A stretch of DNA of 64,000 nt from a virus. Position numbers and translations under genes: made by a program. Below the pieces are notes generated by a model. The model ran no database searches, was not told the DNA's origin, and saw nothing but the letters and a program-made list of their open reading frames with translations. Positions 13,692-58,222 of this stretch are shown here, piece after piece (the stretch's first letter is position 1; every line of letters starts with the position of its first letter). Where the stretch lies: the IMG/VR virus record IMGVR_UViG_3300025674_000016, positions 62,001-126,000 of that record, one strand, 5' to 3'.

Positions 13692-13850
13692 GTGAAAATT
13701 AAAAAAGGCAGATTGCGACAAATAGTTAAAGAAGAATTAGATAAGTTTGTTGCAAAAGTAAACACTCGTACCCTGAACGAAAGCAAATCAACCCCAGATA
13801 AAATTATAGCTCTTTTGGAAGAACTAGAAAAAGATGGCAATAAAAACTAA
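13692..13850 (+). CDS. 52-residue leader-family peptide
   Basis: GTG start with GGAGGG six bases upstream. The product begins VKIKKGRLRQIVKEELDKF, clearly the same Lys-rich amphipathic leader found on the proteins at 19406, 19877, 20413 and 57926. The remaining about 30 residues are acidic and contain TLNE followed by Ser, a match to the (L/I)-x-E prohead-protease cleavage rule known from T4. The gene is too short to stand out as an ORF, but its ribosome site and leader make it credible. It overlaps the next gene by 17 bases. It may be an internal head peptide. Confidence 0.6.
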   Translation: MKIKKGRLRQIVKEELDKFVAKVNTRTLNESKSTPDKIIALLEELEKDGNKN

Positions 13851-16321: not shown

Positions 16322-17320
16322 ATGACATATCCATTACCTATTTTAACTTGGGAAAGAAGCGATATAAGCTCGTTTTCAAGTCCAACTGTTTTTGATATCT
16401 TGACATCCCTTAATAGTATTTTTGTAAGTTCTAGTTATTGGGAAGTAAAATCAACAGATATATCTATTACTGGGTCTTCCGATTATTATCTTGAGGTTGG
16501 GCCTATTACTAGCGCATCTTCTTCCTATGTTAACCAAAGAATTATTTTTGCTGGTGGTGCCAACCCAAATTCCATGTCAGTGGGATATACAGCGAATGCC
16601 AGCAGGCTCATGATTAACTACTGCCCAGACATAACAGGCCGAACAGAATCAGCAGCAAATTGGAAAACGGCAGATCCATTCTCTGGTTCTAGTATACCTG
16701 GTAAGGGCTTTGTCAAGCTAGGAGATACGTTTTCTACTATTACTCGTCTCTATGGCTTGATATGTCAAGAGGGGGTTATTTTAAATCTTAGAAAGGGGCT
16801 AGGGACTAACACTGCCTATCCATTCATGGCCGGTGCCCTTGTTGACCCCGGCCATGGAAACGGAGGGGACGCAAACAATCGACGTTGGATTTTGGCCTCT
16901 CAAGGAAGTTATGGAACATGGAATTCATCAACGCATGCTGCCATACCACAGACATCCGCCAATTTTTTTCTAAAAAACACAAGCACCACAAATGACTATC
17001 CTCACGCTTTTGTATGGAAAGAGTCTGACGACACTTGGGACTATAGTGTGGTGTGTGATACTGCGCACGATATCGAAGCAACATTGAGCAACAATAGAGA
17101 TATTGTTGATGACCAAGGATACATTGTACCACCACCAATGAGGGTTGTGGGGGGTAACGGCTCCCCAAATCGGGCTTACGGCTTTTTAAGGCAGATTTAT
17201 TTTTGTATTATTGGACAAGACGCAGTAGTAAAGCAAGGCTTAACGAGCAATGATTTATATTTTGTGTGGAGCCCGGTGAGTTCTAGTGACGGTGATGCCT
17301 TCATGGTAACTAATTTTTAA
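16322..17320 (+). CDS. Structural protein, tandem paralogue A
   Basis: A 332-residue protein starting MTYPLPILTWERSD. It aligns along its whole length with the next gene product (MTYPLPTLTWEMSE; FDILTSLN; YLEVGPITSAS; RIIFAGGANPN; CQEGVILNLR; AYPFMAGALVDPGH; FLRQIYFCI). I recognise no catalytic motif. Composition and placement suggest a fibre, spike or receptor-binding head. AAGAGG precedes the start. An 80-base block inside the gene is identical in the second copy, which points to recent duplication or gene conversion. Confidence 0.6.
   Translation: MTYPLPILTWERSDISSFSSPTVFDILTSLNSIFVSSSYWEVKSTDISITGSSDYYLEVGPITSASSSYVNQRIIFAGGANPNSMSVGYTANASRLMINYCPDITGRTESAANWKTADPFSGSSIPGKGFVKLGDTFSTITRLYGLICQEGVILNLRKGLGTNTAYPFMAGALVDPGHGNGGDANNRRWILASQGSYGTWNSSTHAAIPQTSANFFLKNTSTTNDYPHAFVWKESDDTWDYSVVCDTAHDIEATLSNNRDIVDDQGYIVPPPMRVVGGNGSPNRAYGFLRQIYFCIIGQDAVVKQGLTSNDLYFVWSPVSSSDGDAFMVTNF
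16912..16991 (+). repeat. 80-bp identical block, copy A
   Basis: This stretch of paralogue A is base-for-base the same as 17941-18020 of paralogue B, including synonymous positions, while the flanks have diverged. It encodes the segment around WNSSTHAAIPQTSANFF. Confidence 0.8.
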
Positions 17321-17332
17321 AAGGAGAAGACA

Positions 17333-18367
17333 ATGACATACCCACTACCTACTTTAACTTGGGAGATGAGTGAACAAGAAACTTTTTCAAGTCCAACTAT
17401 CTTTGATATCTTAACATCTCTTAATAATATTTTTACAAGCGCATCATACTGGGAGGTTAAAAATTCAAGCCTCGCATCGACCGGCTCTTCTGATCATTAT
17501 CTTGAGGTTGGACCTATTACTAGTGCCTCTGCATCTTACGCAGATCAAAGAATTATTTTTGCTGGCGGCGCCAACCCAAATACCATGGCATCATATTACA
17601 CACAGGTTTCCGACCGTTTAATGATTAATTTTTGCCCGGATATAACAAACAGAACACAGACAGCAGCAGATTGGAAAACAGCCGATCCATTTGATGGAGC
17701 AGACATACCAGGAACAGGCTTTGTTCAGCTTGGAACCTCATATAGCAGTATGAGTAGGATTCATGCGATCACTTGCCAAGAGGGGGTTATTTTGAATTTG
17801 CGAAGAGGAATTGGTAATAACACTGCCTATCCATTCATGGCCGGGGCTCTTGTTGACCCCGGCCACAGCAACGGAGGGGACGCAAATAATCGACGTTGGA
17901 TCTTGGCCTCTCAAGGGGGGGGCACGACGTATTCTCCATTTGGAACATGGAATTCATCAACGCATGCTGCCATACCACAGACATCCGCCAATTTTTTTCT
18001 AAAAAACACAAGCACCACAAGTAACTATCCTCACGCTTTTGTCTTAAAAACCTCCACTAATAGTTGGGACAGCAATGTAGTATGCGATACTGCGCACGAT
18101 ATTGAGGCAACCTTAAGTTCATTTAGAGACATCCTTGATGATCAGGGATACTTGGTACTTCCCTCAACTAGAGTAGTTAGCGGCAATCCAAAGTCTTCGC
18201 CAAGCTTAATGTACGGTTTCTTAAGGCAGATTTATTTTTGCATCAATGCTAGGGATAGAGAGTCTGGGCAAAGTTCGGATGGAGAAAACATATTTTTTGT
18301 ATGGGGGCCAGTTCAGGATGAAGCGTCTAGTCCTGCTGATTCTTTTATGGTAACAAACTTTTCATGA
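17333..18367 (+). CDS. Structural protein, tandem paralogue B
   Basis: A 344-residue full-length paralogue of the preceding product. It differs by small insertions (for example GGGTTYSPFG before the conserved WNSSTHAAI) and by a longer C-terminal loop (NPKSSPSLM and DRESGQSSDGE), so variation is concentrated in probable loops. It has its own AAGGAGA ribosome site 12 bases after the first copy's stop. Two related copies in tandem suggest hetero-oligomeric spikes or alternative receptor-binding surfaces; this is inference. Confidence 0.6.
   Translation: MTYPLPTLTWEMSEQETFSSPTIFDILTSLNNIFTSASYWEVKNSSLASTGSSDHYLEVGPITSASASYADQRIIFAGGANPNTMASYYTQVSDRLMINFCPDITNRTQTAADWKTADPFDGADIPGTGFVQLGTSYSSMSRIHAITCQEGVILNLRRGIGNNTAYPFMAGALVDPGHSNGGDANNRRWILASQGGGTTYSPFGTWNSSTHAAIPQTSANFFLKNTSTTSNYPHAFVLKTSTNSWDSNVVCDTAHDIEATLSSFRDILDDQGYLVLPSTRVVSGNPKSSPSLMYGFLRQIYFCINARDRESGQSSDGENIFFVWGPVQDEASSPADSFMVTNFS
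17941..18020 (+). repeat. 80-bp identical block, copy B
   Basis: Second copy of the block at 16912-16991. Identity ends sharply at both sides, with one or two adjacent codons differing (Asn-Asp versus Ser-Asn on the right). Confidence 0.8.
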
Positions 18368-18781: not shown

Positions 18782-19378
18782 ATGAAATTATTACTTGAAC
18801 GTTGGCGAAAATATTTGAATGAGCAGGATGAGCACGCGCTCTTAAATGAAGCTACAGATTTAGTAAAAAATGGCGAGAACATTATAATGTTTTCAGATTA
18901 TGCTAAGAAGCACATTGAGAGTGGCCACAAGAAACCCGGACTTGGTTCTATCTTTGCCGATTTTGACCTCTCTTTGGTTAGCAAAACTTTAGGCACGATC
19001 CCCCTAGAAGGGAATGGTGGAGTCTATTCAGTGGAAGTTCCGGGCGTTGGATATGATTTGGTGTTGCCAATGGACGAAGCCTTGCAATTACCGGACGCAC
19101 AGAAAACAGTCGTTACAAAAGAAGAACGCCAAGGCCCAGTTGAGGTTATTGGCATCAAAACCTCTAAGCCGCTTTCAGGGTTTTTGCAAAATAAGCTTTC
19201 AGTTGTTGTTAGACAAACAAAAAATATGCAATATGTACCCGATGATGTAAAAGAGCAAGTTGCTGATGCTGTCGCGCAAGGACGCGTCTATTCTGTTTTG
19301 AGCGCTTGGCCCGGACGAGGCGACGTGCCCCCTTCAAGCAAATGGGGAGAGGACTGGGCGGTAATTATACCTTCTTGA
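18782..19378 (+). CDS. Leader-type protein with possible BECR-fold nuclease-like body
   Basis: A 198-residue protein. The N-terminus MKLLLERWRKYLNE is a variant short amphipathic leader followed by LLNE-Ala, matching the (L/I)-x-E rule for prohead-protease cuts. The body contains FSDYAKKHIESGH (two His in a helix, about residues 36-48), a beta-rich middle and an end with a small Ser/Trp motif (VYSVLSAWPGRGD). This loosely recalls phage BECR/EndoU/RelE-like RNase domains, where a helix His and late Ser/Tyr residues are conserved. That reading is weak. It is the first of five consecutive small genes between the zinc-ribbon gene and terminase that carry leaders or coiled coils. Confidence 0.5.
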   Translation: MKLLLERWRKYLNEQDEHALLNEATDLVKNGENIIMFSDYAKKHIESGHKKPGLGSIFADFDLSLVSKTLGTIPLEGNGGVYSVEVPGVGYDLVLPMDEALQLPDAQKTVVTKEERQGPVEVIGIKTSKPLSGFLQNKLSVVVRQTKNMQYVPDDVKEQVADAVAQGRVYSVLSAWPGRGDVPPSSKWGEDWAVIIPS

Positions 19379-19405
19379 AAGAGAACTTAAATTTAGGAGA
19401 TTAAT

Positions 19406-19852
19406 ATGAAAATTACTAAATCAAAACTAAAACAACTTATAAGAGAAGAAATTTCAAAAGTTATTCCAGAAGTTTACTATCTGGAACCAAAGGGCAAGCC
19501 CAGAGCAGCGTATCAAGATTATGAAAATGAAGATTTTCAATATGAAAATGCCGCCAACATGCAAAATAGTGTTAGCAATATACTAGAGCTTCACAAAGAA
19601 CTATGGGACGACTTCTACGACATTGAAGAAGAAAGGACGGATAAAGTTGATTATGACCCTGACCCCGGTGGAGCAGGGACAGCAGATAAATACTTGGAAC
19701 GGATATATAGAGAAATGGGTGAACCATTTGCGTTTTTGGTTAGTAAATACTTGGAGAAAAACAAAATCCCAGCGGAGCAATTATCTAGTGACGTATTAAA
19801 TCCAGATGAGGATAGTCGAGACTACGAATATTATACTGATTTGCCAAAATAA
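19406..19852 (+). CDS. Leader-family protein, acidic body
   Basis: A 148-residue protein with the leader MKITKSKLKQLIREEISKV. The first 37 bases of the gene are identical to those of the gene at 20413, so the leader is conserved at DNA level while the bodies differ. The body is strongly acidic with many Tyr (YQDYENEDFQYEN; YDIEEERTDKVDYD) and no known fold. LIRE-Glu fits the T4-type prohead protease rule. AGGAG precedes the ATG. I infer a head-internal protein; function unknown. Confidence 0.6.
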   Translation: MKITKSKLKQLIREEISKVIPEVYYLEPKGKPRAAYQDYENEDFQYENAANMQNSVSNILELHKELWDDFYDIEEERTDKVDYDPDPGGAGTADKYLERIYREMGEPFAFLVSKYLEKNKIPAEQLSSDVLNPDEDSRDYEYYTDLPK

Positions 19853-19876
19853 ATAAAACTATACGGAGCGCTTTCA

Positions 19877-20383
19877 ATGAAAATTACTAAATCTAGATTG
19901 CAGCAGATTATAAAAGAAGAAATCCAAGCTGAAATGAAAAAAAACATAGCTTATTCTGGTGTTGTTCTTGACGATAAAAGCGTAGAAAAATTAAAGGCAG
20001 CAGCTAAAGCCATAGGTGTGCCTGAAGGTTTTGTTTTTAAAACAAATGCTGGGGCTCCTTTACCCCACCACATGACAATTGTGGCTTTTAAACCAATTGT
20101 TTACTCAAAAGGAAATAAATCGCATGATTTTAGTGAACATTATCCTGTTGGTGGAGAAGTAACGCTAACAGTAACACACATTGGATTTGATAATGAAGCA
20201 ATGGCTGCCAAAGTTGATCCGCCTGGCCCAATATCTACTAAAAGAATTAACTTTCCTCACATCACAATAGCTATCCGCGAAGGGGGGAAGCCTTCTAATT
20301 CGAATGATATACTCGATAAAAATTTCCAAAAAGTCGAAGAGTTTGAAGTTACGGGCACAGTACAAGAGGTTCCACAAGGATAG
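19877..20383 (+). CDS. Leader-tagged 2H phosphoesterase-like protein
   Basis: A 168-residue protein. Leader MKITKSRLQQIIKEE is followed by a domain with two H-x-T motifs: His65-Met-Thr67 within PHHMTIVAF and His128-Ile-Thr130 within FPHITIAI, each in a hydrophobic strand and 63 residues apart. This is the signature of the 2H phosphoesterase superfamily (LigT/CPDase-type; the T4 anti-CBASS protein Acb1 belongs to it), which cleaves 2',3'-cyclic or other cyclic phosphodiester bonds. The His-x-Thr pairs are seen; substrate is not. The leader and neighbours suggest packaging in the head, hence possible delivery with DNA. Confidence 0.65.
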   Translation: MKITKSRLQQIIKEEIQAEMKKNIAYSGVVLDDKSVEKLKAAAKAIGVPEGFVFKTNAGAPLPHHMTIVAFKPIVYSKGNKSHDFSEHYPVGGEVTLTVTHIGFDNEAMAAKVDPPGPISTKRINFPHITIAIREGGKPSNSNDILDKNFQKVEEFEVTGTVQEVPQG

Positions 20384-20412
20384 AAGTAAAAAGGCCAATT
20401 GGAGGAGAAAAA

Positions 20413-20799
20413 ATGAAAATTACTAAATCAAAACTAAAACAACTTATAAAAGAAGAGCTAGAGCAAGTGGTTGAAGAGGGGGAACTGGACGAAGGGTTCC
20501 TTGACCGCTTGATGGGCAGGAGCATGAAGAAAGGCGGAGACATGGTTAAGCCAAAAGTTTATGCTCCCGACAACAGAGGGACAATCAGAGACCTCCAGAT
20601 GGACAAGGACGAAATGGGTGACGCTATCGAAGAGTTCAATTTGTCTCTTAAAGACCTAGACGACAGAATGAAAAGTGAACTGTCCAAAGTGAGGGACATG
20701 GTGCTCGATCTGCAAGATAAAGTTCCTAGCGGCGAAGCTTTTAATAAGATAATTAAGAACTTAGACGACAGAATTAAGGCACTAGAGGGGGGACGATAA
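20413..20799 (+). CDS. Leader-family coiled-coil protein
   Basis: A 128-residue protein. Leader MKITKSKLKQLIKEELEQV runs into an acidic patch (EEGELDEGFLD), then a predicted coiled coil from about residue 62 (DKDEMGDAIEEFNLSLKDL and onward, ending DRIKALEGG). There is no Cys and no enzyme motif. Leader DNA is nearly identical to that of the gene at 19406. GGAGGAG lies before the ATG. It stops one base before the GTG of the next gene. An internal head or core protein is inferred. Confidence 0.6.
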   Translation: MKITKSKLKQLIKEELEQVVEEGELDEGFLDRLMGRSMKKGGDMVKPKVYAPDNRGTIRDLQMDKDEMGDAIEEFNLSLKDLDDRMKSELSKVRDMVLDLQDKVPSGEAFNKIIKNLDDRIKALEGGR

Positions 20800-21366
20800 G
20801 TGTCCACAGTATTAGAAATTATAAATGGTATCGCACAAGCAGCAGCAAACGCATATGATGGTGCTCACGATGAAAACGGCGAACCAATTAAAGTTGGTCT
20901 TAAGCGTGAAGAAGGTCACCCAATTCACGATAAGCGCGTAATGGACGGCTTTTCTGTTAAGTTTCAAGGGCCGTATCTCTGCATCTGCTACCACTCAGAG
21001 ATCAACCTTAAGGACGTTCAGGGCGATAAATTAGAAAAAGAAATCGAGCAGATGATTGCCAAGGTCGCAACCTTTTTAAAAAAAGAATACAAGCGAGTCA
21101 CTGGTAACACCTTGACCTTGACAAAAGATGGAGATGTCCAAGCAAGAATGGAATACATGAACCGTATTCGCTGCTGGGTCACTGCACAATGTGATTACAA
21201 GATCGGCGGCTTAGACTCCGAAGCTAGAAAGCAGCCCTCCGAAGACAGGCTAGAAAAAAACTTCAAAGACTTCTTGGCCTTAAGCGACGACAAAAGGCCG
21301 AAGAACGATAAAAGAAAAAAAGATAGCGACCCCACATTCACTCCTTGGAACATGCTAAAGAAATGA
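20800..21366 (+). CDS. Hypothetical protein upstream of terminase
   Basis: A 188-residue protein beginning at GTG 20800, directly after the previous stop. A compact alpha/beta N-terminal domain (to about 140) contains KFQGPYLCICYHSEI and an amphipathic helix, followed by a Lys/Asp-rich tail ending DPTFTPWNMLKK. No leader and no recognised family. Its conserved-looking C-terminal FTPWNM tail might be a docking peptide. It overlaps the next gene by ATGA. Position between leader genes and terminase suggests a virion or packaging accessory. Confidence 0.5.
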   Translation: MSTVLEIINGIAQAAANAYDGAHDENGEPIKVGLKREEGHPIHDKRVMDGFSVKFQGPYLCICYHSEINLKDVQGDKLEKEIEQMIAKVATFLKKEYKRVTGNTLTLTKDGDVQARMEYMNRIRCWVTAQCDYKIGGLDSEARKQPSEDRLEKNFKDFLALSDDKRPKNDKRKKDSDPTFTPWNMLKK

Positions 21367-21752
21367 GTTTATTAGAGCAAATAATCAGAGAACAAATAAA
21401 ACAAAGACTCAACGAGGCAGGCGAAGCAAGGATGAGCGTCCATCCGTTTGCAAACCACTTAGCCAATCAGAGAGATACAACACCTCAAGAAAACCTGTAC
21501 GATGATATCGTCAATGCAACTTTGATTAAAATGGTTTCTGCTCACACAGACGAGCAAGTAAGAGGTATTATTCGTGAACTGGCTGATAGCTATTCAACTG
21601 GACCTGCTGGCGTTGGTGGCAGGTTCTCTGATGCCCAAGTAGAAGAAATCCAAGATCTTGTGTACGATAAGATAGAGCAAAAATTAGATGTAAATTTGCG
21701 CTCCCACCTACCTCAAGACAGAGAACACCCTCTTTTTGTAAGCGAGGAGTAA
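21363..21752 (+). CDS. Leader-type protein upstream of terminase
   Basis: A 129-residue protein. I use the ATG at 21363, which overlaps the previous stop, rather than 21345. It begins MSLLEQIIREQIKQRLNEAG, an amphipathic leader ending in LNE-Ala, an excellent match to the (L/I)-x-E/Ala prohead-protease site. The body is a mostly helical domain (DAQVEEIQDLVYDKIEQKL) without a known motif. It stops four bases before terminase. In some phages a small terminase subunit sits here, so that is an alternative reading, but no helix-turn-helix is evident. Confidence 0.55.
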   Translation: MSLLEQIIREQIKQRLNEAGEARMSVHPFANHLANQRDTTPQENLYDDIVNATLIKMVSAHTDEQVRGIIRELADSYSTGPAGVGGRFSDAQVEEIQDLVYDKIEQKLDVNLRSHLPQDREHPLFVSEE

Positions 21753-23324: not shown

Positions 23325-25373
23325 ATGGCTAGACGAACTATAAGAGCAAGAAGAAACCAACACAACCCTAGAAACCCCACATCTGAACTTTTTAAAAGAC
23401 TGACAAGGCTGCTATCTGGGCCTATTGTTAGTTATCGCAATCAAGCAGAGCGTCAATTGTCTCGTCGCAAGATGGACAAATATAGGTTTAGATCTGCGAG
23501 TGGGCAACAATTTAAAAAAACAACACACAATCCACTGGATTATTTGCACTCTCACATCCTTGCAAACCAAGGCAGAAGCGAGCGGTACGCAGACTTTAAT
23601 CAGATGGAGTATACGCCTGAGATTGCCTCGGCTCTTGATATTTATGCAGACGAGATGTCAACAAGCTCGGATCTCAGACAACTTTTAAAGATTGAGTGTC
23701 CTAATGAAGAGATCAAAAGTATTCTTCACAGCCTCTATTACAATGTCCTGAATATCGAACACAACATGTTCGGATGGTGCAGGACAATGTGTAAGTTTGG
23801 GGACTTTATTCTTTATCTCGACATTGATGAAAATCACGGTGTCAAGAACGTTATTGGCCTTCCATCGCATGAAGTTGAGAGAATTGAGGGTGAAGATCCC
23901 ACAAACCCAAACTATATTCAATTTCAATGGAACTCAGGAGGTATGACTTTTGAAAATTGGCAGGTTGCACATTTCCGTATTCTTGGAAATGATAAGTTCG
24001 CTCCCTATGGAACTTCTGTCCTTGACCCTGCTCGTCGCATTTGGAGACAGTTGACTCTCCTTGAGGACGCAGTAATGGCTTATCGTATTGTTCGATCTCC
24101 TGAGAGGAGGGTTTTCTATATTGATGTAGGTGCAATTCCCCCCAATGAGATCGAGCAGTATATGCAAAAGATTGTAACTCAAATGAAGCGCAATCAGATT
24201 GTCGATACTGACACTGGTAGAGTTGACTTGAGATATAATCCTCTTTCAATTGAGGAAGACTATTATATTCCAGTTAGAGGCGGCAATTCTTCAAAGATCG
24301 AAACACTTGCAGGCGGCTCTTATACTGGCGATATTGATGATATTAAGTATCTGAGAGATAAATTATTGTCGGCCTTAAAAGTGCCTGGCCCCTATTTGAT
24401 GAACAATACTGAAGCCGCTGATGATAAAACAACCCTAGCACAAAAAGATATTAGATTTGCTAGAACAATCCAAAGGCTACAAAGATCTGTTATCTCTGAA
24501 TTGGAGAAGATCGGAATTATTCATCTTTATGTTATGGGGTACAGAACAAAAGATCTTATCTCTTTTAAGTTAAAGCTCAACAACCCATCACAGTTGGCAG
24601 AGATGCAAGAGCTAGAGCATTGGAAATTAAAGTTTGATATTGCTTCCTCCGCAACCGAAGGATACTTCAGCAGACAGTGGGTCGCAAAGAACATCTTTAA
24701 CTTGAGTGATGAAGAGTTTATTCGCAACCAGAGAGAAATGTATTACGACCGCAAGTTTGATGCTGACCTTGAGTCTGCTGCTTCTGCTGCAACCGAGGTA
24801 ACTCAACGAGAATATCAAGGCATGCAGGACTTTGCAGGCAAAGGCGACCAAGCAGGATTTGGTGAAGATAAAGGAGGTGATCTCGGCCTAGGAGATGAAG
24901 GCGGCGGTCTTGATTTAGGAGGTGATCTCGGCGGCGAAACACCAGCAGGAGAGGAAGGTGACACCAAAACACCAGCAGAAGGCGGAGATGAAGGCGGCTC
25001 TCCTCCGGGCGATGACCTTTTATTAGCCAAACCAAGCAAGCGAGATGATGATGTCAAAGTCAAGACAGACGCCTATGGCAAGGTGATAGCTAGAAAAGCA
25101 AAAAGATCAAAAGGCTGGTACAAGCCGGTTCATTACGATCAGAGAGAAAGTTCAGGCGCGAGATATAAAAATAAAAAATCAAAATATGCTGGCGATATGG
25201 GATTGACTTCCAAGACAATAACACCTGGCAGATACCAATTGGGCAGAATTTCTAAGGGCATAACTGAGGGCCAAGATACTAGTTATAGGGAAGAAGAATT
25301 GCTTTTTGAAGCTAGTAGTGAAATTAGAGATTTGATCTCACAGATGGAGAAGCGCGATGAAACTAAAACATAA
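23325..25373 (+). CDS. Portal protein (T4 gp20-like) with extended C-terminus
   Basis: A 682-residue portal, longer than T4 gp20 (524). The central portion carries typical features: DKYRFRS, NPLDYLHSH, EIASALDIYADE, RIVRSPERRVFYIDVG, and PGPYLMNNTEAADDKTTLAQKDIRFAR (given here as landmarks in two parts around residues 350-385). After about residue 505 comes a Gly/Asp/Glu low-complexity stretch (GDLGLGDEGGGLDLGGD) and a basic end. The portal forms the dodecameric head vertex ring and docks terminase. Location between terminase and head genes is standard. Confidence 0.93.
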   Translation: MARRTIRARRNQHNPRNPTSELFKRLTRLLSGPIVSYRNQAERQLSRRKMDKYRFRSASGQQFKKTTHNPLDYLHSHILANQGRSERYADFNQMEYTPEIASALDIYADEMSTSSDLRQLLKIECPNEEIKSILHSLYYNVLNIEHNMFGWCRTMCKFGDFILYLDIDENHGVKNVIGLPSHEVERIEGEDPTNPNYIQFQWNSGGMTFENWQVAHFRILGNDKFAPYGTSVLDPARRIWRQLTLLEDAVMAYRIVRSPERRVFYIDVGAIPPNEIEQYMQKIVTQMKRNQIVDTDTGRVDLRYNPLSIEEDYYIPVRGGNSSKIETLAGGSYTGDIDDIKYLRDKLLSALKVPGPYLMNNTEAADDKTTLAQKDIRFARTIQRLQRSVISELEKIGIIHLYVMGYRTKDLISFKLKLNNPSQLAEMQELEHWKLKFDIASSATEGYFSRQWVAKNIFNLSDEEFIRNQREMYYDRKFDADLESAASAATEVTQREYQGMQDFAGKGDQAGFGEDKGGDLGLGDEGGGLDLGGDLGGETPAGEEGDTKTPAEGGDEGGSPPGDDLLLAKPSKRDDDVKVKTDAYGKVIARKAKRSKGWYKPVHYDQRESSGARYKNKKSKYAGDMGLTSKTITPGRYQLGRISKGITEGQDTSYREEELLFEASSEIRDLISQMEKRDETKT

Positions 25374-26172
25374 TAAAAAGAGGAATACAGCATTTTTATA
25401 TGAAGTTCTTGTTAGGCACCTAACAAAGAGTGTTATCAACAATGATCAAGAAAAGAAATCTGTTGTAACAAAAATTATAAAAGAACATTTCAATAAAAAC
25501 ACAATGCTCTATAAAGAACTTGAGATCTATCGCGCCATCACAGATCAAAAGAGCTTGGACTATCACCTTGCAGAGAAGTTGATCTTTGAAGCAAAGAGAA
25601 CATACGCCAAGTTAGACAAAGAGTCCATATTTAGAGAGCAAAGTAATTTGATTAAAAATATAAACAAGAATCTCTCTAAAGCTGCATATCAGGTATTTGT
25701 TCCAAACTATAAAGATCTAGCTTCAATCTATCAAATCTTGCAAGACCAATTGCCCCTTAAATCTAAAATGATTTTAGAAGAAGGGTTTGTTAGAAGCATA
25801 GCAACCAACAAGACTGAAAAAGCCGAGGGGATGAAACCGATAACAAATATTGTTTACAAGACTTTTGTAAAAAATTTCAATAAGCAGTATGGAGAGTCCT
25901 TGTTGCAGGAGCAGATCCTATTGCTTAACAAATATATTACGTCCTTTTCAGATGGCGGCGTTGATTTTAAGGTATACATGAATGAAGAAATAGCAAGACT
26001 TGAATCAATGGTTTCGCTTATGCTGGAAAGGCAAGACGTACAGCAAGATGATTCTATAAAGTACAAGATCGAAAGAATCTTAGAAACAATAAGAGGTTTC
26101 AATAATAAAGAAGTTGACAACTTGATGCTGGAGCAAGTGCTCAAAATTCAGAAGTTGGTTAAGGAATTTTAA
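25357..26172 (+). CDS. Head-region protein after portal, possible prohead core protein
   Basis: A 271-residue, Lys-rich, nearly all-helical protein. The ATG lies inside the portal gene end with GGAG before it. I see no catalytic motif; long helices (ARLESMVSLMLERQ) fit a core or scaffold-type protein. In T4 the small core genes 67 and 68 lie between portal and protease, the same slot, but this product is much larger. Assignment to head assembly rests on position. Confidence 0.55.
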   Translation: MKLKHNKKRNTAFLYEVLVRHLTKSVINNDQEKKSVVTKIIKEHFNKNTMLYKELEIYRAITDQKSLDYHLAEKLIFEAKRTYAKLDKESIFREQSNLIKNINKNLSKAAYQVFVPNYKDLASIYQILQDQLPLKSKMILEEGFVRSIATNKTEKAEGMKPITNIVYKTFVKNFNKQYGESLLQEQILLLNKYITSFSDGGVDFKVYMNEEIARLESMVSLMLERQDVQQDDSIKYKIERILETIRGFNNKEVDNLMLEQVLKIQKLVKEF

Positions 26173-27142: not shown

Positions 27143-27203
27143 CAGATGGAAGCTACAGCCAGTTCGTCGTTGTCGTAATGGCTGCATAATCGCGCTGGGG
27201 TGA
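27135..27203 (+). CDS. Possible 22-residue Arg-rich peptide upstream of prohead protease
   Basis: The ATG overlaps the preceding stop region and has GAGG nine bases upstream. The translation MNNRWKLQPVRRCRNGC then IIALG has five Arg. It ends inside a hairpin (27194-27210) right before the protease ribosome site. It may be a real mini-gene, a translational coupler for the protease, or chance. Confidence 0.3.
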   Translation: MNNRWKLQPVRRCRNGCIIALG

Positions 27204-27210
27204 GCCCAGC
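27194..27210 (+). promoter_or_regulatory. Hairpin just before the protease ribosome binding site
   Basis: GCTGGG and CCCAGC can pair around a GTGAG loop. The hairpin ends a few bases before ATCGGAG, the ribosome site of the gene at 27227, and contains the stop of the mini-ORF. No U-run follows, so it is not a terminator; a translational control element is possible. Confidence 0.35.
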
Positions 27211-27226
27211 CAATCGGAGAATTAAA

Positions 27227-27832
27227 ATGTCAGATATAAACAAATATTTAATTCGAGAGTTCTATGAACTTTGCGATGGTGGTAAATGCGAAGACTTTTT
27301 AACGGAGTCTGAAAAAAGAAGAGTCAGGGAGGGAAAGGTTACTATTCTTTCTGGGAAACTTCAAGAGGCGGAGTGTCTTAACGGCAACAAGCGTATTTAC
27401 CCCATGAACATATTAAAGCGAGAAGTTGAAAACTATCGTAAATTTGTCGAACAACGCAGGGCAATGGGCGAGCTAGATCACCCCGATTCAAGCGTTGTCA
27501 ACCTTCAAAATGTTTCACACATTGTTACAGATATCTGGTGGGACGGAAAGAAAGTAATGGGCAAGATTGAAGTCCTGAACACACCAAGCGGCAATATCCT
27601 TAAGAATCTTGTTGAGGCTGGTATCAAGATGGGCATCTCCTCTAGAGCACTCGGCAGCGTTACCCAGAGAAATGGCAAGACATATGTTGAGGATGATCTA
27701 CAACTAATTTGTTTCGATATGGTCAGCGAACCTTCGACACCAGATGCCTTTATGTTAAAAGAACATAGAATGAGAAATTCTAATTACGAACCCACAAACA
27801 TTCACAACTTATTGGACAGCATACTTAAATGA
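27227..27832 (+). CDS. Prohead protease (T4 gp21-like, serine protease)
   Basis: 201 residues from the ATG at 27227, which has CGGAG seven bases upstream; a longer GTG reading from 27200 lacks a good site. The sequence shows the herpes-assemblin/T4 gp21 fold landmarks: NGNKRIYPMNILKREV, GELDHPDS with His85, and MGISSRALGS with the catalytic Ser at 138/139. It digests the scaffold and trims head proteins after (L/I)-x-E before DNA filling. Matching sites appear in the neighbouring scaffold, capsid and leader proteins. It lies between the core-type genes and scaffold as in T4. Confidence 0.93.
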   Translation: MSDINKYLIREFYELCDGGKCEDFLTESEKRRVREGKVTILSGKLQEAECLNGNKRIYPMNILKREVENYRKFVEQRRAMGELDHPDSSVVNLQNVSHIVTDIWWDGKKVMGKIEVLNTPSGNILKNLVEAGIKMGISSRALGSVTQRNGKTYVEDDLQLICFDMVSEPSTPDAFMLKEHRMRNSNYEPTNIHNLLDSILK

Positions 27833-28245
27833 AACGAAATGAATTAAAAAAAGTTTTAAAACCTCTTATTAAAGAGTGCATTAAAGAGGTTATTTTTGAA
27901 GAGGGAGTTTTATCTGGCTTGATATCAGAAGTTCTAAAAGGAACGTCCAGCGCACAACTGGTTAGTGAAGCCCCGCAAAAGAAAGTTCAAAAACCAAGGG
28001 CAAAGTCAATAGAAAAGCGGCCAGCCAGACAAGATAAGTTAAATGAAATGAGAAGATCACTCACCGAAGCTATCGGCAAAGATGCTTACGGTGGCGTGGA
28101 TATCTTCGAAGGCGTTCAGCCTATTTCAAAAGCAGGTACACCAGGACCAGCGGCACCATCAAGTCCGCTGCAAGCCTACGCACCAAACGATGCGGGTGTT
28201 GATATCAGTGCGATATTCAACCCAAATTGGAAAAATTTAGTATAA
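27829..28245 (+). CDS. Leader-type head-associated protein
   Basis: A 138-residue protein overlapping the protease stop (ATGA). It begins MKRNELKKVLKPLIKECIK, a leader similar in charge and pattern to the MKITKSKLKQLIKEEL family. Near residue 80 lies SLTE-Ala, a predicted prohead-protease site. The rest is Pro/Ala-rich and disordered-looking, with a short end VDISAIFNPNW. Position right after the protease and the cut site suggest a processed prohead core protein. Confidence 0.6.
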   Translation: MKRNELKKVLKPLIKECIKEVIFEEGVLSGLISEVLKGTSSAQLVSEAPQKKVQKPRAKSIEKRPARQDKLNEMRRSLTEAIGKDAYGGVDIFEGVQPISKAGTPGPAAPSSPLQAYAPNDAGVDISAIFNPNWKNLV

Positions 28246-29006: not shown

Positions 29007-30011
29007 ATGAGTTCAATGCTAGAACAGGCTATTGTTGATGCTGCCGCACTTAAAGAAGCAGCATTGAAAAATGCCGAACAACAAGTTTTAGAAAGATATT
29101 CCAAAGATATAAAAGAAGCAGTGAATGCTTTATTGGAGCAGGACGAGCTGGAAGACGCGCCGCCCATGATGATGGAGCCAGAGCCCGTTATGGACGAAAT
29201 CCCCCCTGCTCCTGCCGCAGGCGAGAAGCTTTGTCCTTGCCCCGATGACGAAGAAGTTGTTGAATTAGATTTAGATAATCTAATGATGCAGGTCGATGAT
29301 GAAGAGCCAGATCCAGAAGATGCAATGGATCGAGAAGGTGTAGCTCAAGAGTTGGGCGATCAAGATGATCTTCTTGGTGGGGACTTAGGTGGCTTAGAAA
29401 CAGGCGACGAGGAAGAAGAAGGTCTTCAACTTGAAGAGAACATTGATATTGATGAATCAGATTTAATTGATCTTGTTGAGGAGCTTGTTTTCGATCACAT
29501 GTCGCAGCCTAGCGGAAACCCAACGGGCCTGCCTGTTGAGGATCTTCATAGAGAACAAGAGCTTGAGGAGCTAGCAAAGCAGATTCAACAAGCAAATGAA
29601 AAAAAGAAAGATCTTCAAGAATCACTTAAGGATTCAAGATCGGAGAACAATAAACTTAGAAGAACAGTTTTAAAACTAAAAGAAAAACTAGACGAAGCAT
29701 TGGTTTCCAATGCAAGACTAATTTATACAAACCGTGTGCTGGGGAACGACTCCCTGAATGAGCGACAAAAAGATAAAATTGTCGAAAAGATCTCCGAAGC
29801 ACGAACAATTGAAGAAGCCAAAATGATCCATGAGGCACTTCAAAGTGCAGTGGCGGGCACTTCCAAAAAGGAAGGTCCAAAATCACTGAACGAAGCAGTT
29901 TCACGTCAATCAACACAGGTTTTTTCACGTCGTCAACGATCCGAGACCAATCAGGTCAACGATCAATTTTTTAAGAAGATGCAGCGTTTAGCTGGCATCA
30001 AAAAGAATTAA
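29007..30011 (+). CDS. Prohead scaffold/core protein (T4 gp22-like)
   Basis: A 334-residue acidic, helical protein directly before the capsid gene, where T4 encodes gp22. The middle is Asp/Glu-rich (PDPEDAMDREG; TGDEEEEGLQLEENIDID), followed by a long coiled coil (about residues 185-240) and a C-terminal part with SLNE-Ala, a predicted prohead-protease site, then FSRRQRS and MQRLAGIKK. It would form the internal core around which the capsid assembles and then be degraded by the protease. Confidence 0.85.
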   Translation: MSSMLEQAIVDAAALKEAALKNAEQQVLERYSKDIKEAVNALLEQDELEDAPPMMMEPEPVMDEIPPAPAAGEKLCPCPDDEEVVELDLDNLMMQVDDEEPDPEDAMDREGVAQELGDQDDLLGGDLGGLETGDEEEEGLQLEENIDIDESDLIDLVEELVFDHMSQPSGNPTGLPVEDLHREQELEELAKQIQQANEKKKDLQESLKDSRSENNKLRRTVLKLKEKLDEALVSNARLIYTNRVLGNDSLNERQKDKIVEKISEARTIEEAKMIHEALQSAVAGTSKKEGPKSLNEAVSRQSTQVFSRRQRSETNQVNDQFFKKMQRLAGIKKN

Positions 30012-30027
30012 GGAGATTAAAAAAACA

Positions 30028-31767
30028 ATGAGCGTTTTACAAAAGTTAACCGAAGGCATTGTTAATCGTAACATCCAGAAAGAGGGCGAAGCTCTTCTCC
30101 AGAAGTGGGAGCAGACTGGTCTTCTTGAGGGTATGGATAACGAAAATGCCCGTTCAAACATGGCTGTTCTCTTGGAGAACCAGGCCAAAGAGCTTCTCCG
30201 AGAGGCTTCTTCTATGGCGGCTGGTGATGTCGAAGGCTTTGCCAGCGTGGCATTCCCCATCGTCCGCCGAGTCTTTGGTGGTCTTATCGCCAACCAATTG
30301 GTCTCAGTCCAACCTATGAGCTTGCCTGCTGGCTTGATTTTCTTCCTTGACTTTACTTATACCGATAGCCGCGCTGGTCAAACTGCCGGTGAGTCGGTAT
30401 ATGGTGGTAATGTTGTTGGTAAGGGTCTTGTCGATGGTGTGGACCTGTCTCCGACTGGAGATACGCAAGCGGGTGGTTTTTATGACCTTAGCACTGGCTA
30501 TAGTTCTCCAACTGGCTCTGTTTCTGTTACCACAGCAGCACCAGACGGCTCTACTGGTGATTTGCCAACTGTGCTAACTGATGTTGCAGTTAGTGCTCTA
30601 TCGGAAGCACAAAAAAAGGCCCTCCAGTACGACCCGGATATCCTAGCAGATGCAAGCTTGAAAGTCACAGTTCACAAGTCGCCTAACGCTGCTACTTCCG
30701 ATTTCCCAAACTTGAATCTAAATGCCCTGACTGCAATTGAGGCATCTGGTATTGATGGTGTTCTAGTGCGAAGGCTAACTAGAATTGATAAAAACGATAG
30801 CAACAAATTAGTTTTTGTAGTTATTAGGGACGCTGCGACACCAGAGGCGCACGGAGCTATCACCTTTAACTATCCGATGACAGACAAGTATGAAGCTAGT
30901 ACCGCCATTGGTTCTGTTGTTGGTAACGTTCCATTTGGCCTTGAGGGTGCAGATGATGTGTCTGGCGGTGATTTTGACGGTTCAACCCGCGATAGAATCC
31001 CAGAGATTGATATCAAGGTCGATTCTGTCAGCGTGACCGCTGTCACCAAGAAGTTGAAGGCCAAGTGGACCCCTGAGTTGTCTCAGGATCTTAATGCTTT
31101 CCACAACATGGACGCAGAAGTAGAGCTTACATCGATCCTTTCCGAGCAGATTGCTCTTGAAATCGATCAGGAAATCTTGAATGATCTTGTTAAGGATGCT
31201 ACTGCTGGCACATACTATTGGAGCCGTCGCCCCGGTCGCTTTGTTGATCGCGGCACTGGCGATGATATCAGCGGCCTTTCTAACGAATCTCTCTTGGGTG
31301 CAGATTTCACTGGCACAGTCAGTGAATGGTACGAGACCCTTATTGAGACAATCAACGATGTCTCTGCGCAGATCCACCGCAAGACTCTGCGCGGCGGAGC
31401 TAACTTCTTGGTCTGTGGTCCTGAGACCGCAAATGTCCTAGAGTTCACCGCTGGTTTCCGCGCTAGCGTTACCCACGATGCAGATACTGGCCAAGCCGGT
31501 ACTGTTAAGATCGGTGCGATCTCCAAGAAGTTCGACGTTTACGTCGATCCTTACTTCCCAAGAAACGTGGTTCTAGTTGGCCGCAAGGGCTCCAGCTTCC
31601 TTGAAAGTGGCTACGTCTACGCACCTTATGTGCCTCTACAGGTCACGCCGACTATCTTCGGTGTTGAGGACTTTGTGCCTCGTAAGGGCGTTATGACGCG
31701 CTACGCCAAGAAGATGGTGAGGCCCGACATGTACGGCTTGGTTGTTATCAAGGACTTCCTTGGCTGA
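30028..31767 (+). CDS. Major capsid protein (T4 gp23-like)
   Basis: A 579-residue HK97-fold capsid protein. The N-terminal arm (KWEQTGLLEGMD; LLENQAKELL) matches the gp23 arm. LLRE-Ala at 59/60 is the probable prohead-protease cut, like the gp23 cut after residue 65. Later landmarks: FPIVRRVFGGLIANQLVSV, QPMSLPAGLIFFLDF, KAKWTPELSQDL, AFHNMDAEVEL, and the C-terminal YVYAPYVPLQVTPT. Codon use is richer in C-ending codons than in neighbours, as expected for high expression. AAGGAG precedes the start and a strong terminator follows. Confidence 0.96.
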   Translation: MSVLQKLTEGIVNRNIQKEGEALLQKWEQTGLLEGMDNENARSNMAVLLENQAKELLREASSMAAGDVEGFASVAFPIVRRVFGGLIANQLVSVQPMSLPAGLIFFLDFTYTDSRAGQTAGESVYGGNVVGKGLVDGVDLSPTGDTQAGGFYDLSTGYSSPTGSVSVTTAAPDGSTGDLPTVLTDVAVSALSEAQKKALQYDPDILADASLKVTVHKSPNAATSDFPNLNLNALTAIEASGIDGVLVRRLTRIDKNDSNKLVFVVIRDAATPEAHGAITFNYPMTDKYEASTAIGSVVGNVPFGLEGADDVSGGDFDGSTRDRIPEIDIKVDSVSVTAVTKKLKAKWTPELSQDLNAFHNMDAEVELTSILSEQIALEIDQEILNDLVKDATAGTYYWSRRPGRFVDRGTGDDISGLSNESLLGADFTGTVSEWYETLIETINDVSAQIHRKTLRGGANFLVCGPETANVLEFTAGFRASVTHDADTGQAGTVKIGAISKKFDVYVDPYFPRNVVLVGRKGSSFLESGYVYAPYVPLQVTPTIFGVEDFVPRKGVMTRYAKKMVRPDMYGLVVIKDFLG

Positions 31768-55753: not shown

Positions 55754-55993
55754 ATGAGCGCAGACATTGAACTTTTTAGAGACACTCATTATGGCTTAGA
55801 AACTTCTTTATCTATGGAAATAAAGGCGCAAGGCTGGGTTTCTTTATGTATTGAAAACGATCATGTAAAAGCCCCCGGCGATTCTCAAATCTCTGAGGTG
55901 TGGCTAAACTTGCAAGAAGAAGAACATAGAAATGTCGCCAAAAACCTTATCAAACATCTACAACACCAACTAAACATTTGGGATGAGAAATGA
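55754..55993 (+). CDS. Small protein, paralogue of the 56532 gene product
   Basis: 79 residues from ATG 55754 with GGAG upstream. The pattern is LETSLSMEIKAQGWVSLCIEN then VWLNLQEEEHRNVAKNLIKHLQHQLNI. The product at 56532 has the same layout (LSLDIRTSGVGLEVWRED; ITIWFGLRRKEDREELQKL; FHLQHQLEIHE), so the two are duplicates. They flank the capsid-like gene. Confidence 0.6.
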   Translation: MSADIELFRDTHYGLETSLSMEIKAQGWVSLCIENDHVKAPGDSQISEVWLNLQEEEHRNVAKNLIKHLQHQLNIWDEK

Positions 55994-56535
55994 GTGAAAA
56001 CAACAACTACACAACAAAGGACAAAGAAATGAGTGAAAACAACAACTACACAACAAAAGAAAAATGGGAAAAGACCGGCCTACTTGATTCTCTTTCTGAC
56101 GAGAAAGCAAGCAAAATTGCACATCTATTCGAGAACCAGGCCCGATACCTAATGAGCACTTTTAGTGATCGAGACATTCCTAGCGAGTTTGGATTTTTAA
56201 ATAGATCCTTTGCGATAATTCGGGATGTCTTTGAAGGGGATGACTTGTCTTTTACATTTGAAGCAACCAACCTCCCTGCCTTTATTTACGCAAAAGAAGG
56301 ACAAACTGATGAAGAGGGGGCGGCCATGACAACCACGCCCCATCAGTTCGACACCCAGCCCACGAGTGAAGACGACGCCACTATTGCTGAAATTGTGAGA
56401 AAAGAACTTAATAGTAGGTACGCTGGCAAACATTTGATCTTTGGTGCGCCGCTTGTGGATGTTAACGGTTTTGGCTGTGTCTGCGCGGCTGTTGACGGCG
56501 GCTCAAGATTGGTTTTTGGAGGATATGAGAAATGA
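55990..56535 (+). CDS. Truncated major-capsid-like protein (N-terminal region homologue)
   Basis: A 181-residue protein. Residues 23-52 (KEKWEKTGLLDSLSDEKA; HLFENQARYL) align with residues 24-57 of this phage's own capsid protein (LQKWEQTGLLEGMDNENA; VLLENQAKELL), and residues 73-100 (SFAIIRDVFEGDD; TNLPAFIYA) with capsid 74-107 (AFPIVRRVFGGLI; MSLPAGLIF). The capsid's protease site LLRE-Ala is replaced by LMST. The rest of the capsid fold is missing; a different C-terminal 55 residues follow. The first 26 residues are a tandem repeat (MSENNNYTTK twice). A decoy, regulator or dominant-negative role is inference. Confidence 0.75.
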   Translation: MSENNNYTTKDKEMSENNNYTTKEKWEKTGLLDSLSDEKASKIAHLFENQARYLMSTFSDRDIPSEFGFLNRSFAIIRDVFEGDDLSFTFEATNLPAFIYAKEGQTDEEGAAMTTTPHQFDTQPTSEDDATIAEIVRKELNSRYAGKHLIFGAPLVDVNGFGCVCAAVDGGSRLVFGGYEK

Positions 56536-57925: not shown

Positions 57926-58222
57926 TTGAAGATAATAAAGTCAAAACTAATACAAATAATTAAAGAAGAGCTTGATAAAGAGGCGGTGAGGTCAGAAAAG
58001 GAGGCGGCTGTCGATTCCTTGCTGGGCAGTAGGCCACTTACCATTCCTCAACTAGAGCTTCTTTTTCCAAATTCTGAAGCTGAAGATATAAAAAATATAG
58101 AAACAGAACTTAAAAAGTTTGAAGAATTTGACCGCGAAGGGTACAGAGAAGCCTTGCTTGACCTTCTTTATCAACAGAAACCTATTGACCCCGAAGGAAA
58201 CCCCTTGGAATTCTCCTCTTGA
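57926..58222 (+). CDS. Leader-family protein in the early region
   Basis: A 98-residue protein with TTG start, CAGGAGGG upstream. The leader MKIIKSKLIQIIKEELDKEA belongs to the same family as those at 13692, 19406, 19877 and 20413. The rest is acidic and helical (LPQLELLFPNSEAEDIK is not exact but lies mid-protein) with no fold recognised. It has its own late-type element upstream, isolated from the head genes, which suggests the leader unit and its promoter move together. Confidence 0.6.
   Translation: MKIIKSKLIQIIKEELDKEAVRSEKEAAVDSLLGSRPLTIPQLELLFPNSEAEDIKNIETELKKFEEFDREGYREALLDLLYQQKPIDPEGNPLEFSS

Follow-up and report, generated by a model that had tools for sequence, protein, structure and literature searches.

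Leaders on unrelated proteins of a T4-like virus probably serve as capsid-targeting propeptides

Short conserved leaders, followed by unrelated protein bodies, open a set of genes in a T4-like virus and its relatives. We consider it probable (roughly 85%) that these leaders are N-terminal capsid-targeting propeptides, meaning that the tagged proteins would be loaded into the prohead, freed of the leader by a gp21-type protease and most likely injected. Sequence comparison establishes that the leaders are modular and are swapped between bodies, that their conservation has a sharp limit, that a cleavage motif lies there which matches a site in the major capsid protein (MCP), and that they are nearly restricted to viruses. 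An earlier note on this DNA had proposed a packaging tag; the proposal is supported by leader swaps, by LxE endings, by a scaffold-like third leader and by the match of the second leader class to residues known from T4.

Leader classes and their genomic setting

The window, i.e., the whole stretch of 64,000 nucleotides analysed here, corresponds to positions 62001-126000 of a virus record of 155,702 bases (155.7 kb). Judging by the sequences of TerL, S77 protease and capsid protein, the source virus is T4-like, its closest annotated phage by TerL being Flavobacterium phage immuto (46% identity). The head genes of the window are as follows.

21757, TerL
23325, gene in the portal position
27200-27832, plus strand, gp21-type prohead protease (Peptidase S77; PF03420, E 1.9e-30; phrog_207, E 2e-54), the presumed processing enzyme for the leaders
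27829-28245, plus strand, conserved probable core protein adjoining the protease, with the leader-1-like N-terminus MKRNELKKVLKPLIKECIKEVIFEEG
29007-30011, plus strand, putative scaffold in the gp22 position, directly upstream of the MCP gene, with the conserved C-terminus KMQRLAGIKKN at 29976-30008
30028-31767, plus strand, T4-type major capsid protein gp23 with a cleavage predicted to follow residue 59, LLENQAKELLRE/ASS, at 30169-30204, the site being invariant among relatives

The leader genes of the window are given below; here and in the text, a slash marks the end of a leader or the predicted cut.

13692-13850, plus strand, leader-1 protein, 52 aa, GTG start, MKIKKGRLRQIVKEEL...TLNE/SKST
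18782-19378, plus strand, leader-2 protein, 198 aa, leader at 18782-18823, MKLLLERWRKYLNE/
19406-19852, plus strand, leader-1 protein, 148 aa, leader at about 19406-19471, MKITKSKLKQLIREEISKVIPE/
19877-20383, plus strand, leader-1 protein, 168 aa, leader helix at about 19877-19942, body a predicted 2H phosphodiesterase with HHMT and PHIT motifs
20413-20799, plus strand, leader-1 protein, 128 aa, leader at about 20413-20478, MKITKSKLKQLIKEELEQVVEE/, first 37 bases the same as those of 19406
21363-21752, plus strand, divergent leader-1 protein encoded immediately before TerL, leader at 21363-21416, MSLLEQIIREQIKQRLNE/AGEA
57926-58222, plus strand, leader-1 protein, 98 aa, TTG start, MKIIKSKLIQIIKEELDKEA

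Leader 1, with the consensus MKITKxxLxxIIKEELxxVLxE, was searched for by a position-specific scan of about 190 genes at N-termini and internal positions. It opens six ORFs in the whole genome, namely 13692, 19406, 19877, 20413 and 57926 in the window and G000:2165 outside it, and a second, internal copy lies at residue 242 of the G000:2165-3661 protein. A control scan of the genome with the reversed leader returned zero matches. The next-best matches after this set were the core protein at 27829 and 21345/21363; orthologues of 21363 that lie beside TerL in relatives keep a leader of the same type (MKINKNSLQQLVREELKRALSE and similar). Leader 2, MKLLLENWRKYLxE, opens 18782 and two to three further proteins of the genome, all outside the window: G000:7086 (MKLIFENWRRHLKE), 146103 (MKKIIESWNDYLNE) and probably 6483 (MKMQNLFEGFRKWSNE).

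These results bear out a leader common to the five window proteins named in the earlier note, and all the ORFs that it listed exist. The bodies, said there to be unrelated, indeed gave no BLAST match to each other. The idea of one leader family has to be replaced by at least three families, with unrelated bodies and swapping retained. Among the three further proteins credited with similar leaders, 21363 belongs to a divergent form of class 1, 18782 belongs to another class, and 27829, a conserved protein adjoining the protease, does have a leader-1-like N-terminus but is probably a core protein rather than tagged cargo.

Across 28 loci centred on TerL, the density of leader genes is highest within 6 kb upstream of TerL. 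A search for a T4-type late promoter motif ahead of the leader genes found none, which counts against capsid targeting.

Cargo bodies and the scaffold-like leader

The bodies behind leader 2 include HAD, NUDIX, AAA_33, protein kinase, HNH, DUF192, transglutaminase and 5'-nucleotidase domains. Recognisable domains are almost absent from class-1 bodies. The body of 19877 matches the Pfam family tRNA_lig_CPD (E 1.4e-6), and in its AlphaFold model (pLDDT 90.8) the leader forms a separate helix outside a 2H fold. A Foldseek search gave CNPase as the best PDB relatives (E 7e-5), with the anti-CBASS protein Acb1 (7t26) at rank 48 (E 3e-3). With two H-x-T motifs on the 2H fold, this body is a predicted 2H phosphodiesterase. 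It shares the fold and both motifs with the 2H phosphoesterases CNPase, LigT and anti-CBASS Acb1, and differs from them in sequence (about 15% identity) and in carrying a leader. A fold search with the body of 18782 yielded no confident PDB match.

Leader 3, FLKMQKLAGLITESEYKKALLTE/, was found on homologues of the 18782 body. Its motif RMQKLAGI (RMQxLAGI) recurs as the conserved C-terminus of the protein in the scaffold position, just upstream of the MCP: in 16/16 relatives examined, the scaffold ends in, or within a few residues of, a [RK][MWL][QK]xLAG[IL]-like sequence. In the cultured Flavobacterium phage immuto, two proteins start with MKKQILSEQF[RK]RMQxLAGIITES and the scaffold ends with RWQKLAGIIK. 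The two are YP_010114600.1, encoded at 111675-112139 of the immuto record, and a protein encoded at 25061-25456; their predicted cut is LAGIITE/S.

The likeness of leader 3, and possibly of leader 1, to scaffold or core segments would also be expected if the tagged proteins joined the prohead core for assembly only, setting core volume, head size or DNA condensation, and were not injected effectors. Most class-1 bodies are small and have no recognisable domain, and the leader genes cluster near head genes, both of which fit such a role. The NUDIX, HAD, kinase, HNH and nucleotidase domains of class-2 cargo and the tagged 2H phosphodiesterase of the window speak against it; the repertoire is also very variable for such a role, and the T4 internal proteins and Alt are injected (PMC9026906, PMC12373910). 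We regard a purely structural function as improbable, though it is the strongest competitor of capsid targeting with injection.

Cleavage motif at the end of the leader

T4 gp21 cleaves after L/I-x-E (PMC9026906). The earlier note had observed that several leaders end in (L/I)-x-E, and as a class property of leaders 1 and 2 this lies far above chance. Among 235 non-redundant class-2 proteins, chosen on residues 1-9 only, [LI]xE occupies residues 12-14 in 179 (76%), as compared with about 2.6/234 (about 1%) at control positions, and [LIVM]xE occurs within residues 10-18 in 220/235. Conservation ends at E14, residue 13 is variable and nothing is conserved beyond 14; LTE, LNE or LKE still forms the end in several proteins that contain an inserted residue. 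For class 1 (140 proteins, chosen on residues 1-15 only), [LI]xE is present at residues 19-30 in 81 vs. 22.8 ± 4.5 in shuffles, and [LI]xE[AGSN] in 44 vs. 6.0 ± 2.4, the site peaking at residues 21 and 22. Over all genes of the phage there is no enrichment of N-terminal [LI]xE[AGSN] (15, 15 and 10 of 141 in three windows of residues), so the enrichment belongs to the leader proteins.

In the phage's own genome, clear sites are found in 13692 (LNE/S), 21363 (LNE/A), 18782 (LNE/Q), 19406 (IPE/V) and 2165 (ILE/Q), and a weaker one in 20413 (VEE/G). Of the phage's six leader-1 proteins, 19877 and 57926 have no downstream (L/I)xE and could be cleaved only at the invariant IKE/E of residues 12-14, with a less usual P1', which counts against the propeptide reading. 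The phage's own MCP has LLRE/A at the position matching the T4 gp23 cut, and LL[RK]E/[ANT] stands there in 15/15 MCPs of the phage and its relatives. The T4 gp23 sequence at the corresponding site is SFLTE/AEIGG, which we take to be the position of the cut. The T4 gp23 propeptide is 65 residues long (PMC9026906).

Residues 4 and 7 of T4 IPIII direct targeting, and residues 8 and 10 direct processing (PMC9026906). In class 2, W8 (which was selected for) is followed by an aromatic residue [YFH] at 11 (224/235), an aliphatic one [LIVM] at 12 (217/235) and glutamate at 14 (199/235). This spacing is that of Y4, F7, I8 and E10 in T4, i.e., aromatic, aromatic, aliphatic and Glu; class 1 is without such a match.

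Amphipathic Lys/Leu/Glu helices bind many partners. The leader might for that reason dock elsewhere, on a tail part, a replication compartment, a membrane or a chaperone, with LxE being incidental to the end of the helix. The limit of conservation coincides exactly with a gp21-type motif whose P2 residue varies, and insertions before the motif keep LxE; both facts make this very unlikely, as do the same site in the MCP, the repeat of the scaffold C-terminus in leader 3 and the fit of class 2 to the T4 determinants.

Exchange of leaders and their copying as DNA

The family of the 19877 2H phosphodiesterase was found in 39 viral loci and exists in three states. Leader 1 is present in the window and in loci L515-L520, leader 2 in L521-L524 and L538-L543, and no leader in, e.g., L530, L544-L547 and L552. 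The joint is constant, just before the first strand AYSGVVLDD. Leader 1 of the window protein, MKITKSRLQQIIKEEIQAEMKK/NIAYSGVVLDD, is replaced in L263 by a different leader, MKLLLENWREFLTEQ/NIAYSGIVLDD, the bodies being 47% identical; the bodies of L106 (leader 1) and L250 (leader 2) are 40% identical. Bodies of the 18782 type were found behind leader 2 or leader 3.

The earlier note had further claimed that the leader is kept or exchanged as DNA. Genes 19406 and 20413 do agree in each of their first 37 bases, and the chance of such agreement over 11 codons is 1.5e-5 under the phage's own codon usage. Within contigs, 859 of 1202 same-residue leader codons are identical vs. 548 expected from codon usage; this excess over what codon usage predicts shows that leaders have been copied as DNA. 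With leaders that are exchangeable on one cargo and copied at the DNA level, any gene could be turned into cargo. The copied codons and the 37 bases in common would also suit diverged paralogues of one duplicated gene with a functionless leader, but this is hardly credible, since one body family in three leader states and another with leaders 2 and 3 need leader exchange, and the bodies fall in unrelated known folds.

Distribution in viruses and bacteria

Leader proteins occur in hundreds on viral contigs. In IMG/VR, the leader-1 DNA pattern was found in at least 120 stretches, with at least 181 leader ORFs among the matches listed; for class 2, the strict pattern gave 109 stretches and the relaxed one at least 120. 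Leader 1 was met in only 10 stretches among 84,980 bacterial and archaeal genomes, all in metagenome-assembled contigs, and the class-2 start in 0/399 genomes of one bacterial phylum. One of the 10 stretches lies in a 305-kb contig that looks like a mis-binned phage, since it encodes an S77 protease and has seven leaders. The leader is thus nearly confined to viruses, and the equal occurrence in bacteria that would have spoken against a packaging tag is not seen. As to its association with a gp21-type protease, suggested as a further check, such an S77 enzyme is encoded in 22/22 contigs that were selected by leader and reach at least 115 kb, vs. 4/5 random contigs as large as these; S77 is frequent in large contigs anyway, so co-occurrence discriminates weakly. 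Within the 2H family, the association of leader and protease is not significant (p = 0.10).

A short-query tblastn search of 50,697 phage records with leaders 1 and 2 gave no real match, only one weak uncultured hit. Among cultured phages, leader 3 alone occurs, in Flavobacterium phage immuto. Neither immuto nor mass spectrometry is mentioned in a publication about Flavobacterium phages from the Baltic (PMC7077304), and a literature search for the leader-string motifs found no paper.

Proposed mechanism and comparison with known systems

According to the capsid-targeting explanation, the leader would fold as a short amphipathic helix and in this way give an unrelated protein entry to the prohead core during head building. 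The gp21-type protease would then cut after the (L/I)-x-E at the leader end, leaving mature cargo free in the head. The cargo would most likely pass into the next host together with the DNA, to act early on host defence or metabolism. We strongly infer head loading and leader cleavage. By analogy, leader proteins are expected in virions and would be injected; binding of the leader to the core and the targets of the cargo are proposed likewise, and a counter-defence role of the cargo is suggested by the T4 precedent.

We conclude that the leaders would work like the T4 capsid-targeting sequence but differ from it in sequence. As on T4 IPI, IPII, IPIII and Alt, a short N-terminal segment ending in (L/I)xE stands on otherwise non-homologous proteins, the genome encodes a gp21-type protease, and the motif is found again in the phage's own MCP where the cut is expected. 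T4 ipII and ipIII start with MKTYQEFIAE/A, and MKTYQEFIAE is present in no leader class here, for which reason membership in the T4 family by descent is not claimed. Unlike in T4, there are at least three classes of 14 to about 28 residues on hundreds of proteins, including metabolic-type enzymes, a single cargo may switch class, and class 3 repeats the scaffold C-terminus. T4 Ip1-3 have the leader alone in common and each inhibits different restriction enzymes (PMC12373910), and Alt is an enzyme (PMC9026906).

In phage P1, the N-terminal 30 residues of DarB suffice to load a reporter into the head, and the cargo is anti-restriction (PMC9024508). The P1 Dar proteins, however, have no common consensus, and P1 itself apparently has no separate scaffold system, whereas here the leader is common to many proteins. 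The ejection proteins of SPN3US/phiKZ-type giant phages, reported to be carried in the head and processed by the prohead protease, are comparable; the genomes considered here differ in being T4-like by TerL, S77 protease and capsid protein.

The T4 internal proteins include injected anti-restriction proteins; to our knowledge, few leader-tagged proteins are known, and these come from E. coli phages. The same logic with new tag sequences would now extend to hundreds of unrelated proteins of uncultured, mostly environmental T4-like phages. From sequence alone, the tags allow "hypothetical proteins" to be searched for candidates that may be injected for counter-defence or takeover, and they suggest how cargo docks on a scaffold.

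Possible origin of the leader classes

Between leader 1 and the N-terminal segment of the 27829 family there is a resemblance (median shuffle p 0.002), as there is between leader 2 and the MCP propeptide segment LLENQAKELLRE/ (p about 0.02); both likenesses are suggestive only. We tentatively raise the possibility that the leader classes are copied head assembly segments in a multi-address system of core loading, which would also use two-cargo polyproteins such as G000:2165, split by the protease. The sources would be the scaffold C-terminus for class 3, the N-terminus of the core protein for class 1 and the end of the capsid propeptide for class 2. Several addresses might direct cargo to separate binding sites within the core, or set how many copies are taken up there.

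Additional Leader Genes and Paralogues

Features, in whole-genome (G000), window or accession coordinates:
G000:2165-3661 (= L004:2165-3661): ORF, 498 aa, two leaders
Window 16322-17320 and 17333-18367: pair of paralogues in tandem (332 and 344 aa)
Window 20800-21366: conserved protein, MATTLEIIxGIxQAAANAYDG family
Window 55990-56535: ORF, 181 aa, resembling the N-terminus of the major capsid protein (MCP)
NHDW01000006.1 (L322/L326/L328): contig with leader 1, 305,838 bases
Immuto (NC_055915), 1803, 103806, 117631, 118632 and 125241: small proteins with a fourth leader-like N-terminus

The 498-residue product begins with leader 1. Another leader, ITKSKLRQIIREELNKQLHKEG, lies at residue 242, with pentapeptide repeats after it, so that the product is possibly a polyprotein of two cargoes which the protease would separate. 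The contig NHDW01000006.1, assigned to a Methylococcaceae MAG, encodes seven proteins that start with leader 1 as well as an S77 prohead protease, and looks like a mis-binned jumbo phage. In the Flavobacterium phage immuto, the fourth N-terminus (MENFDLKKFLVENKLTxNSKxLKE or similar) is found on mutually unrelated small proteins, some of which adjoin the TerL and protease genes.

The gene for the conserved protein of the MATTLEIIxGIxQAAANAYDG family precedes TerL in almost every relative; the protein has no leader, although leader genes surround it. The tandem proteins, with the common start MTYPLP.LTWE, are clearly the product of a recent duplication. The 181-residue ORF (KEKWEKTGLLDSLSDEKASKIAHLFENQARYLMS) appears to be a paralogue of the MCP N-terminus that lacks the shell domain.
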